DNA of 64,000 nt, taken from the NCBI RefSeq assembly GCF_002140915.1, contig NZ_NGKU01000001.1:1-64000 (forward strand), written 5' to 3'. The notes beneath the pieces were generated by a model. The model saw nothing but the letters and a program-made list of their open reading frames with translations, did not search any database and had not been told where the DNA came from. Source of the stretch: Candidatus Enterococcus testudinis (lineage in GTDB: Bacteria > Bacillota > Bacilli > Lactobacillales > Enterococcaceae). Positions 5,127 through 58,628 of this stretch are shown one piece after another; position 1 is the stretch's first letter, and every line of letters starts with the position of its first letter. A program made the translations under genes and the position numbers.

Positions 5127-5173
5127 ATGGTAAATAATATAAACACAGAACCTAGTATATGCGTTTTTTCTTC

Positions 5174-5360
5174 AGAGAGCTGATGGATGGTGAAAATCAG
5201 TGATCAAACGGATAGAATCCAGTTCTTTGACGTGTATTTTTCGAAAGAAAAATCGTCGACTCACGATACGAGTATCAAGGGCAGCTGAAGCTGAACTTGG
5301 GTGGCACCGCGAATGGTTATTTCGTCCCAAGCAACAAGGGATCGGAGTAACCATTTTTTG
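5174..5360 (+). promoter_or_regulatory. T-box leader (serine) with terminator
   Basis: A tRNA-sensing T-box riboswitch. Stem I begins with AGAGAGCTGATGGATGG (5175). The specifier is probably UCC, a Ser codon, at 5218-5220 in the GAA-TCC-A context. The T-box core with GGGTGGCACCGCG lies at 5299-5311. A terminator follows (5312-5360), pairing AATGGTTA with TAACCATT before a T run. Uncharged tRNA-Ser would stabilise the antiterminator and allow serS transcription. Structure class and specifier position are established for the family; the pairing is by eye. Confidence 0.93.
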
Positions 5361-12714: not shown

Positions 12715-12730
12715 TGTTTCACGTGAAAAC
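12715..12730. promoter_or_regulatory. parS-like site (left arm)
   Basis: TGTTTCACGTGAAAAC matches the conserved firmicute parS (TGTTNCACGTGAAACA) at 14 of 16 positions and keeps the CACGTG core. It lies 2 bp beyond the guaB stop and about 19 kb left of dnaA. ParB, encoded at 18.7 kb, is the expected binder. Confidence 0.6.
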
Positions 12731-40666: not shown

Positions 40667-40682
40667 TGTTTCACGTGAAACA
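40667..40682. promoter_or_regulatory. parS site, perfect match
   Basis: TGTTTCACGTGAAACA matches the firmicute parS consensus at all 16 positions and is a perfect palindrome. It lies in the 43-bp gap between rpsF and ssb, about 8 kb right of oriC, inside an operon, so ParB would load on transcribed DNA. Confidence 0.9.
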
Positions 40683-41497: not shown

Positions 41498-41507
41498 ATC
41501 GACAGCA

Positions 41508-41546
41508 AATGACAAGCTTCTATATAGAGGTTTGTCATTTTTTTCT
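41508..41546 (+). terminator. rpsR terminator
   Basis: AATGACAAGCTTCT pairs with AGAGGTTTGTCATT (wobbles) around ATAT, followed by seven T. Confidence 0.82.
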
Positions 41547-41629: not shown

Positions 41630-41645
41630 CGTTTCACGTGAAACA
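41630..41645. promoter_or_regulatory. parS site upstream of gdpP
   Basis: CGTTTCACGTGAAACA differs from the consensus only at the first base (15 of 16). It lies 963 bp from the perfect site, so the two would form a local ParB loading cluster. Confidence 0.85.
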
Positions 41646-41678
41646 TTTTTTTGCATCATCGCCTAATTTCTTAAACTG

Positions 41679-41687
41679 TGGTAAAAT
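41679..41687 (+). promoter_or_regulatory. gdpP-rplI extended -10 promoter
   Basis: TGG followed by TAAAAT (41682-41687). No good -35 is seen. It would start transcription near 41694, 42 bp before the gdpP ATG. Confidence 0.45.
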
Positions 41688-41735
41688 AGGATAACGAAAG
41701 AGTACAAACTGGGAGAAAAATTGAGGGGTTTAATA

Positions 41736-43184
41736 ATGGCAGCAATTGGGTTGATTTCAATTGACAACTATGATGATTTGATTGAAAAAAAAGACGATAA
41801 GCAAGTATCTTATTTGAACTCGCTGATTACAACGCTGATTTCTGATTGGGCAAGTGAAAACAGTGTTTTTTACAAACGTATCAATTCAGAGCGTTTTCTT
41901 TTTGTTGCGAAGGATTCTGATATTGATCGGATGAAAGAAGACAAATTTCAATTTTTGACCCGCGTGCGACAGGTGGCTGAAAAAAATGATTTGCCATTGA
42001 CGATCAGTATGGGTATTGCTTATGGTCAAGAGTCTTTTGAGGTGATCGGGGAAGAAGCCCAAAATAATCTCGATGTGGCTTTAGTCAGAGGTGGTGACCA
42101 AGTTGTGTTGAGAGAGGCAGTCGAAGATGCCAAACCGCAATTCTTTGGGGGGAATACCGATGGTACACCAAAGAGAACGCGTGTTCGCTCTCGAGCAATG
42201 AGTACAGCGCTCAAAAAGATTTTTGCGGAGAATCAGCGGATATTTATCATGGGACACCGTTATCCTGATATGGATGCCTTAGGCTCTGCCTTTGGTGTTG
42301 CCTATATGGCAATGATGAGCGACAAAGAGTGTTATATCATCTTGAATCCTAAAGAAATCACAGCGGATATTGAGCGTGCCCTTGAGGAATTAAAGAAGTA
42401 TCCTGATCTTGAACGACTCGTGATTTCCGCTGATGAAGCAATCGATCTTTCAAATGACGATAGCGTTTTAGTTATGGTGGATTATCATAAACCATCGATG
42501 TCGATTTCTCAAGCTGTCTATGACGCATTTGAAAAAATTGCTGTGATCGATCACCATCGTCGTGGAGATGAGTTTCCTGACAAACCATTACTGACTTACA
42601 TTGAATCGACTGCTTCTTCTGCAGCAGAACTGGTAGCAGAATTGATTCAATACCGGGCAGCCCGTAAGTCATTATTGCCTAAGTTTATCTCTACCGCACT
42701 TTTAGCTGGTATCTATGTGGATACCAAAAACTTTACTGTGCGTACGACTGGCCGTACCTTTGATATAGCCGGTTATCTAAAAAATCAAGGTGCAGACACA
42801 TCTTTGGTTCAATATATGCTCAGTACAGATTTAGATTCTTATCTGATGATCAGTGAATTGGTATCACGAAGCAAACATTTTAAAGAAGATATCGTAATCG
42901 CTGCAGCAGATGAAGATCGCGTGTATGATAGTGTGACAGTAGCCAAAGCTGCGGATACATTATTGTCTATCAACGGCATCCACGCTGCCTTCGTGATCAC
43001 CAAACAACCAGGAGACTTGATTGGGATCAGTGCCCGCAGCACGGGCAAGGTCAATGTCCAAACGGTGATGGAGGCCTTGGGGGGTGGTGGCCATTTTACC
43101 AACGCAGCAACCCAAATCAAAGGAAGCAATATCGATGAGGTGGAGCATCGACTACGCAATGAATTAATCAATCATGATCAATAA
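41736..43184 (+). CDS. gdpP: c-di-AMP phosphodiesterase GdpP, N-terminally truncated (no TM or PAS domains)
   Basis: Hydrolyses c-di-AMP to pApA. The protein has 482 aa, whereas GdpP is usually about 655-660 aa. It begins inside the degenerate GGDEF domain (IGLISIDNYDDLIEKK, then SERFLFV), and the two membrane helices and heme-binding PAS domain are absent. The catalytic part is intact: GHRYPDMDALGSA (about 174), VDYHKPSM, the IDHHRRGDE site (about 270), and the DHHA1 motif GGGGHFTNAA (about 450). Only about 190 bp separate it from the rpsR terminator, too little for the missing part, and there is no frameshifted remnant. GAGGGG lies 9 nt before ATG 41736; an in-frame TTG at 41721 is an alternative. 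It is followed by rplI 15 bp later. Confidence 0.88.
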   Translation: MAAIGLISIDNYDDLIEKKDDKQVSYLNSLITTLISDWASENSVFYKRINSERFLFVAKDSDIDRMKEDKFQFLTRVRQVAEKNDLPLTISMGIAYGQESFEVIGEEAQNNLDVALVRGGDQVVLREAVEDAKPQFFGGNTDGTPKRTRVRSRAMSTALKKIFAENQRIFIMGHRYPDMDALGSAFGVAYMAMMSDKECYIILNPKEITADIERALEELKKYPDLERLVISADEAIDLSNDDSVLVMVDYHKPSMSISQAVYDAFEKIAVIDHHRRGDEFPDKPLLTYIESTASSAAELVAELIQYRAARKSLLPKFISTALLAGIYVDTKNFTVRTTGRTFDIAGYLKNQGADTSLVQYMLSTDLDSYLMISELVSRSKHFKEDIVIAAADEDRVYDSVTVAKAADTLLSINGIHAAFVITKQPGDLIGISARSTGKVNVQTVMEALGGGGHFTNAATQIKGSNIDEVEHRLRNELINHDQ

Positions 43185-56940: not shown

Positions 56941-58398
56941 ATGACGAAAGTACGTGTACGTTACGCGCCAAGTCCAACAGGACATCTACACATCGGCAAT
57001 GCCCGGACGGCTTTATTCAACTATTTATTTGCCCGTCACAACGATGGTGATTTTATCATCCGCATCGAAGATACGGATCAAAAACGAAATATTGAAGACG
57101 GTGAAAAAAGCCAGTTAGAAAACCTGAAATGGCTAGGAATGGATTGGGATGAATCCCCTGCTGAACCAGGTGCTTACGGCCCTTACCGTCAATCAGAACG
57201 CGGAGAGCTTTATCAACCGCTGATCGATCAATTGCTTGCAAGCAACCGTGCCTATAAATGCTATTGTACAGAAGAAGAGCTGGAAGCTGAACGAGAAGGC
57301 CAAAGAGCCCGTGGTGAAATGCCACATTATGGCGGCACATGTGCCAATTTGACGCCTGAAGAACAAGCTGAAAAAGAAGCGCAAGGCTTAGAGCCGGTTA
57401 TTCGCTTCCGTGTGTCTCGTAATACTGAATACAAATTCCAAGATATGGTCAAAGGTGAAATCGTCTTTGAATCAGACAATGTTGGTGGTGATTTTGTCAT
57501 CCAAAAACGTGATGGCATGCCGACTTACAACTTTGCCGTTGCAGTCGACGACCACCATATGAAAATCACTCATGTGTTGCGTGGAGACGATCATATTGCG
57601 AATACACCAAAACAATTGATGATTTACGAAGCATTTGGTTGGCAAGCACCAGAATTTGGTCATATGACACTGATCATCAACAGCGAAACTGGGAAAAAAT
57701 TAAGCAAACGGGATGAATCGATCTTACAATTTATCGAACAATACCGCGAACTTGGTTATTTACCTGAAGCAATGTTCAATTTCATTGCATTATTAGGCTG
57801 GTCGCCAGTTGGGGAAGAAGAAATCTTCTCTCAAGAAGAATTGATCAAAATCTTCGATCCAGAACGCTTGAGCAAATCTCCGGCTGCATTTGATGCGAAG
57901 AAATTAGAATGGGTCAACAATCAATATATGAAACAAATGGACTTGGAAGAATTAACAGCTATGTGTGTGCCTTATCTAGTCAAAGCTGGTCGGATCGATG
58001 AAGCAACTGCTGCTGATAAACAAGATTGGCTGCAAAAAATCGTTTCATTGTATCAACCACAAATGAGCTATGCCGCGCAAATCGTTGATTTATCTGACTT
58101 ATTCTTTGAAGAACATCCTGTTTTAGATGATGCAGCAAAAGAAGTATTGGCAGGTGAGACAGTACCGACTGTCTTACAAGCATTCAAAGAAAAATTGAGT
58201 GCATTGCCAGTTGTTGAAGCGGCGGCTGTCAAAGCAGCAATCAAAGAGATTCAAAAAGAAACAGGCATCAAAGGCAAGAACTTGTTCATGCCGATCCGTG
58301 TAGCCGTTTCAGGTCAAACCCACGGACCAGAATTACCAGATACTGTTGAATTATTAGGGAAAGAAAAAGCCCTTGATCATTTAAATAACGTATTATAA
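56941..58398 (+). CDS. gltX: glutamyl-tRNA synthetase
   Basis: Class I enzyme of 485 aa. The HIGH motif appears as [18 protein letters not shown] (about 10-27) and KMSKS as KLSKRDESI (about 254). Firmicutes usually use a non-discriminating GltX that also charges tRNA-Gln, later amidated by GatCAB. The C-terminal anticodon domain is helical. GAGG lies upstream of ATG. Control is not by T-box; the only notable element is a 24-bp palindrome before the RBS. The cysE T-box follows the stop. Confidence 0.97.
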
Positions 58399-58403
58399 AC
58401 ACA

Positions 58404-58432
58404 TTGAATAGACGAAGTACTGTTGCTTTTAT
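58404..58432 (+). promoter_or_regulatory. possible cysE operon promoter
   Basis: TTGAAT (58404-58409), 17-nt spacer and TTTTAT (58427-58432) with a TGC extension. It sits just before the T-box. Confidence 0.4.
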
Positions 58433-58435
58433 TTT

Positions 58436-58628
58436 AGAGAGATCACGGGTGGTGCAAGTGATCATAAAAGGATGGGAAATGCACCTATGAGTGGCTTTGG
58501 CGCAAGTCAAAGACGGCCTAGCGGACGTTACCCGCTTTGAGGCAGGCTATTGTCTGCAAACAAAAGTGGGACCACGCAGGAAAGCGTCTTTTGGATAAGG
58601 AAACTTATTTGAAAGACGTTTTTTTTGT
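58436..58628 (+). promoter_or_regulatory. T-box leader (cysteine) with terminator
   Basis: Stem I begins AGAGAGATCAC (58436) with GGTGCAAGTGATC. The specifier is probably UGC, a Cys codon, at 58480-58482 (GGAAA-TGC-ACC). The T-box core reads GTGGGACCACGC (58566-58577), a shortened variant. The terminator pairs GCGTCTTT (58584-58591) with AAAGACGT (58612-58619) before eight T. Uncharged tRNA-Cys would allow transcription of cysE-cysS. Confidence 0.88.

Follow-up and report, generated by a model that had tools for sequence, protein, structure and literature searches.

A clade of Enterococcaceae carries a short GdpP without the membrane anchor and PAS sensor, apparently under selection

The c-di-AMP phosphodiesterase gene gdpP in the window, which is the whole stretch of 64,000 nucleotides from Candidatus Enterococcus testudinis analysed here, encodes a protein of only 482 aa that begins at the GGDEF domain and lacks the transmembrane (TM) and PAS parts of full-length GdpP. 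Judged by its sequence, this protein is probably a soluble, constitutively active phosphodiesterase that arose by one ancestral removal of the TM-PAS module, with membrane sensing now falling to PgpH; solubility, catalytic activity, loss of regulation and the transfer of sensing to PgpH are what we infer for the short form. Comparative data place it as a clade-wide GdpP variant under selection. The features of the locus, in positions of the window, are as follows.

41507..41540, + strand: terminator-like hairpin, 3ʹ of rpsR
41630..41645, + strand: parS-like site with one mismatch to the consensus, also found 5ʹ of many full-length gdpP genes
41677..41688, + strand: extended −10, TGTGGTAAAATA, identical in all six genus members aligned
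41723..41728, + strand: ribosome binding site GAGGGG (GAGGNG in each of the same six genus members)
41736..43184, + strand: gdpP, short form, 482 aa, from the ATG at 41736 to the end of the stop codon at 43184 (open reading frame and Pfam; start via the G004 frame)
41754..42119, + strand: degenerate GGDEF domain (Pfam GGDEF_GdpP, aa 7–128), whose first strand is the protein start in the AlphaFold model
42237..42713, + strand: DHH domain (Pfam, aa 168–326), with invariant H174, D178, D180, D249 and D272-H273-H274
42924..43160, + strand: DHHA1 domain (Pfam, aa 397–475), with GGGH at 450–453
43005..43007, + strand: codon 424, Q in 22/23 short forms and R in 27/27 full-length forms

The ATG at 41736 is the likely start, because in G004, a relative with 97% identity, the frame is closed two codons ahead of it; an in-frame TTG at 41721, 15 bases further 5ʹ, is an alternative start that would yield 487 aa. 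A Pfam scan of the 482-aa protein found no family beyond GGDEF_GdpP, DHH and DHHA1, and no PAS, with the degenerate GdpP-type GGDEF clearly present (PF24898, E 9.3e-36). The AlphaFold model had good local and modest global confidence (pLDDT 81.3, pTM 0.55). The earlier note, made from the letters of the window, had described a 482-aa GdpP starting within a degenerate GGDEF domain and retaining its DHH/DHHA1 motifs, and both points held: besides the DHH and GGGH residues listed above, D329 was also invariant across 20 aligned proteins, and we take all of these residues to be catalytic. The nearest solved structures were the GdpP catalytic domains 5xt3/5xsi and chain 9n0l, residues 115–583 of which were aligned by residues 3–473 of the short GdpP.

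When the starts of 20 full-length relatives were chosen by script, they lay 155–173 codons ahead of the short-form start point, in agreement with the earlier estimate of about 170 missing N-terminal residues. Nine of ten full-length N-termini matched Pfam PAS_GdpP at E ≤ 0.1. The two N-terminal transmembrane helices of the GdpP family are absent from the short form; no 19-residue window in the 23 short proteins exceeded a mean hydropathy of 1.44, so that no transmembrane helix was detected, while 27 full-length proteins peaked at 2.24–3.18 in their N-terminal parts (G003, with a broken frame, was left out of the hydropathy and residue-column counts). The product of the short gene is most likely a GGDEF-DHH-DHHA1 protein that would be soluble.

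A profile of ten aligned full-length N-termini was used to search 30 genomes, namely the 24 short-form genomes described below and six full-length controls, for the TM-PAS module. It was found in all six controls (E ≤ 3.1e-46), and no separate module was detected by this search in the 24 short-form genomes (best E 0.002) or, at E ≤ 1, in the window's own genome, which speaks against a separate TM-PAS protein of the kind that the earlier note had suggested looking for. The weak matches in short-form genomes were short, low-scoring stretches, mostly on the TM part. Two reached the PAS part, covering profile positions 52–139, in G004 (E 0.008) and in E. casseliflavus G001 (E 0.010); each lies in a 448-aa protein that we take to be lyase-like, and both were rejected as sensors. 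Another, in G056, covered positions 76–150 (E 0.11) and contained an internal stop. By eye, no TM-PAS gene was seen in the measured rpsR-gdpP gaps, even in those of several kilobases.

To place the short form in its family, we surveyed 105 Enterococcaceae genomes, of which 24 had a short GdpP, seven had none and 74 had a full-length one, the N-terminus having been inspected in 20 of these 74 and the remainder classed by frame length. The short form was present in all six genomes examined of the casseliflavus/gallinarum genus (g1), the group to which the earlier note had rightly pointed, and in genera g6 (four genomes), g7 (two), g8, the E. italicus genus (three), and g17, the Tetragenococcus genus (nine of nine). 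Apart from G003, the short frames were open (23/24) and spanned 483–508 aa. The full-length set comprised 72 frames of 612–700 aa, one broken frame (G038) and one split at a contig end (G049). The breaks in G003 (E. innesii GAL7, L048 3001–4443) and G038 (C1:10732–12143) may be real or sequencing errors. Only weak DHH-type matches were found in the seven GdpP-less genomes. Six of them (L122–L127, genomes G064, G069, G068, G062, G093 and G063, respectively) had rpsR and rplI on one contig with no gdpP match between them; the gaps measured 182–251 bp in four of these genomes, 1103 bp in another and 1734 bp in the last. No rplI was located in the seventh, G065, whose genome is 77% complete.

The window has the gene order rpsR-gdpP-rplI-dnaB, and some relatives carry insertions between rpsR and gdpP. 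In two g6 genomes (L082 and L083), a gene of 1279–1561 aa and another gene stand there, presumably encoding a surface-protein-like product with a YSIRK-like signal and a NUDIX-like product. In T. osmophilus (L090), the intervening 426-aa open frame presumably represents a group II intron reverse transcriptase. The gap in E. casseliflavus NBRC 100478 (L072) is 890 bp, compared to about 240–260 bp in close relatives, and contains no + strand frame of at least 60 aa.

The earlier note had also inferred from a terminator, a parS site, an extended −10 and a ribosome binding site that the short gene is deliberately expressed, and all four elements were located. The 12-base block holding the −10, together with most of the ribosome binding site, was invariant among six genus members; the −10 call rests on this conservation, because a consensus scan upstream of gdpP called no sigma-70 promoter on the + strand. 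By eye, a −10 of the TGNTAAAAT kind was seen 5ʹ of both short and full-length gdpP in most rows, and a parS-like site (at most two mismatches to the consensus) preceded 14/20 full-length versus 9/21 short gdpP genes. The idea of a kept promoter thus stood, and the idea that the parS-like site and the −10 belong specifically to the short gene did not; we read both as ancestral elements. The distance from rpsR to the GGDEF start was 161–259 bp in 13/20 short-form loci and 601–776 bp in 14/18 full-length loci, with the other short-form loci at 392 bp to 8.2 kb owing to insertions or, in G003, the broken frame. The simplest anatomy would be a deletion of the TM-PAS coding part that left the promoter in place, an order of events that we infer.

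Three parS-like sites with at most two mismatches were found in the 64-kb window, versus 0.04 expected. These palindromes (40667–40682, 41630–41645 and 12715–12730; one exact, two near) lie towards the beginning of the chromosome contig, and the one ahead of gdpP recurs in relatives. Elsewhere in the window, Rfam placed two T-box leaders, at 5133–5332 and 58395–58594.

To reconstruct the history of the short form, we compared a GdpP core tree with trees of the neighbour genes. In the core tree (50 proteins, N-terminus excluded, G003 left out for its broken frame), the 23 short forms made up one clade (100/99), within which the casseliflavus genus was outermost and the rest were supported at 88/84. 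Both neighbour trees were computed without L102, where dnaB is represented by a short piece, and L093, where no dnaB was detected. The 39-row tree, without the GdpP-less genomes, required one change of the short label (SH-aLRT 89) and likewise put the casseliflavus genus outermost among the short forms. The 53-row tree, with GdpP-less genomes and additionally without L127 (no dnaB) and G296, joined the window's genus to the full-length g5 (85/88) and the other short forms to the GdpP-less g10 (81/87), neither node being starred; here, three changes of the short label were needed, including the g10 loss. Read at face value, the 53-row tree would imply two separate losses of the TM-PAS module, one in the casseliflavus genus and the other in the italicus/Tetragenococcus group. 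We consider this unlikely, given the single change in the 39-row tree, the single clade in the core tree and the start codon at an identical point of the domain in the short forms; moreover, forcing the short forms and g10 together was 3.77 log units worse, with an AU p of 0.179, so that one clade was not rejected. A single loss is favoured by these trees over two. In the 53-row tree, g10 sits beside g7 and Tetragenococcus (98/98), which suggests an order from full-length through truncated to absent; gdpP can evidently be dispensable, because g10, nested in the second short group, has none.

The two kinds of tree also bear on a horizontal origin, in which a short allele from one lineage would have replaced the gene of the other at the rpsR-rplI locus. 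The GdpP tree is well supported at points where support in the neighbour tree is low, and the stem of the short forms is 0.218 in GdpP versus 0.016 in the neighbours (a ratio of 13.5 versus 1.97 overall; the third largest residual of 91), measured on a topology forced to unite the short forms, so that the excess is only suggestive. Considering that the casseliflavus genus is outermost in both the core and the 39-row trees and that gdpP stands ahead of rplI in all measured loci, we give such a replacement a low probability, below that of two losses.

A single ancestral loss, the favoured history, leaves the question of what the short protein does. Among ten short-form species pairs, the computable dN/dS values were 0.016–0.111; saturation affected both halves of the gene in two pairs and the DHH half in two others. 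Five full-length pairs were compared in the same way: two showed saturation in both halves, and the other three yielded 0.018–0.049. Several dS values exceeded 1, so these ratios are rough. Every computed dN/dS indicates purifying selection on short gdpP, with some short pairs less constrained than the computed full-length pairs. At DHHA1 residue 424, 22 of the 23 short forms have Q, and all 27 full-length ones (23 from the family and four from outside) have R. Under the rule applied, only three columns separated the two forms, and extensive adaptation is not supported by this measure.

The R424Q exchange and the long stem would fit a changed role of the soluble form, for instance towards cleavage of pApA or nano-RNA, and excerpts from PMC10720645 describe nanoRNase and ssDNase activity for the Mycoplasma bovis GdpP, which has no PAS. 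However, the structures nearest to the short protein are GdpP catalytic domains, NrnA being far weaker (the NrnA model scored 69.8 bits, its cut-off being 350), and the window's genome encodes an NrnA-like protein separately, with 28% identity across the DHH part; there is little to favour a changed role. Decay into a gene of little function is less probable still. The relaxed ratios of some short pairs, PgpH as a possible backup and the absence of gdpP from g10 (beside the short-form g7 and Tetragenococcus), from g12 and from one of two g14 genomes would agree with it, but the dN/dS values remain low, the catalytic-type residues are invariant, the −10 and ribosome binding site are conserved, and G003 alone among the 24 short frames is broken in its record. 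An assembly error or a deletion confined to this strain, the two objections foreseen in the earlier note, is refuted by the six of six genus genomes and the 18 in four further genera that share the short form.

Outside the family, an order survey of 395 genomes showed no clean TM-PAS loss among the matches listed, 83 of them from outside Enterococcaceae. Two short frames among these matches (G113, 542 aa; G412, 575 aa) were rejected as convergent losses, since TM-PAS-like sequence remains in another frame by eye. A class survey of 200 genomes also showed no clean loss, all 148 matches listed outside the family having frames of at least 645 aa. Beyond the matches listed in these surveys, a 589-aa frame of a distant GdpP relative in a Eubacterium MAG (L071 2647–4413, 32% identity) has 118 residues before the match, perhaps a PAS without helices ahead of the GGDEF part. 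No report of the short form was found in the open-licence literature searched.

The c-di-AMP setting of the short form was assessed through its partner genes. PgpH was found in 104 of the 105 family genomes, including all 24 with short GdpP (the one miss, G063, is 85% complete), and the DAC synthase in all 31 short-form or GdpP-less genomes searched. With both present, these genomes presumably produce c-di-AMP and retain a membrane phosphodiesterase. We also considered whether the TM-PAS loss was tied to an abandonment of haem respiration and rejected this, as cydA (cytochrome bd) was present in 24/24 short-form genomes; the 62 genomes with cydA matches included none from g4 (15 genomes) or g5 (10), both with full-length gdpP.

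In excerpts from the review PMC10243994, E. faecalis GdpP reduced to DHH-DHHA1 is reported to have about 13-fold higher activity than the full-length form, a figure for a form that also lacks the GGDEF domain kept by short GdpP. According to the same excerpts, PAS truncation left the activity of S. pneumoniae GdpP unaffected, and ppGpp inhibits E. faecalis GdpP weakly. Because the isolated catalytic part is more active, the PAS truncation was neutral and the ppGpp inhibition is weak, derepression of the short form is plausible but not certain. The excerpts also call the signal routes to c-di-AMP via CdaA and GdpP a significant gap and suggest membrane sensing.

Taken with these reports, a single ancestral loss could have proceeded as follows. 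About 500 bp would have been cleanly excised from gdpP in an ancestor of the casseliflavus-italicus-Tetragenococcus group, and the existing promoter and leader would thereby have come to precede a start codon at the first GGDEF strand. The product would be a soluble GGDEF-DHH-DHHA1 phosphodiesterase, free of the membrane anchor and N-terminal control, serving as a constitutive cytosolic sink that converts c-di-AMP to pApA, and membrane signal input would be left to the second phosphodiesterase, PgpH (7TM-HD), and the synthase. The consequences proposed in the earlier note, namely loss of membrane localisation and of haem/NO sensing and altered c-di-AMP levels, potassium uptake, wall stress and beta-lactam tolerance, may follow from the missing parts. 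A wider reading, which we offer as a speculative possibility, is that throughout this lineage, osmophilic Tetragenococcus included, all membrane sensing moved to PgpH and the synthase while GdpP was re-tuned to serve as a soluble sink free of regulation; its catalytic part would have changed in a burst at the loss (the long stem and R424Q), and one genus would later have lost GdpP altogether.

The short-form clade amounts to a natural TM-PAS deletion in several genera, under selection, with the full-length g5 relatives (about 60% core identity) for comparison, and it can reveal which stress responses depend on anchor and sensor. GdpP regulation worked out in E. faecalis or Bacillus should not simply be transferred to E. 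casseliflavus, E. gallinarum and Tetragenococcus.

Compared to the full-length GdpP (YybT) of enterococci and other Bacilli, the short form has the same GGDEF_GdpP, DHH and DHHA1 domains, catalytic-type residues, rpsR-gdpP-rplI locus and type of −10, but it has no membrane anchor or PAS and begins at the GGDEF domain. The Mycoplasma bovis GdpP, as described in excerpts from PMC10720645, resembles it in combining a GGDEF-like motif with DHH-DHHA1 in the absence of PAS; that protein carries a transmembrane part at its N-terminus, and its DHH domains are atypical, whereas the short form has no transmembrane part and its DHH residues match those of ordinary GdpP. The stand-alone enzymes DhhP, Pde2 and NrnA share with short GdpP a DHH-DHHA1 arrangement without a membrane part, but unlike it have no GGDEF. 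PgpH (7TM-HD), by family a c-di-AMP phosphodiesterase and present in the same genomes as short GdpP, differs from GdpP in being a membrane protein with an unrelated HD catalytic domain, as excerpts from PMC10243994 also state.
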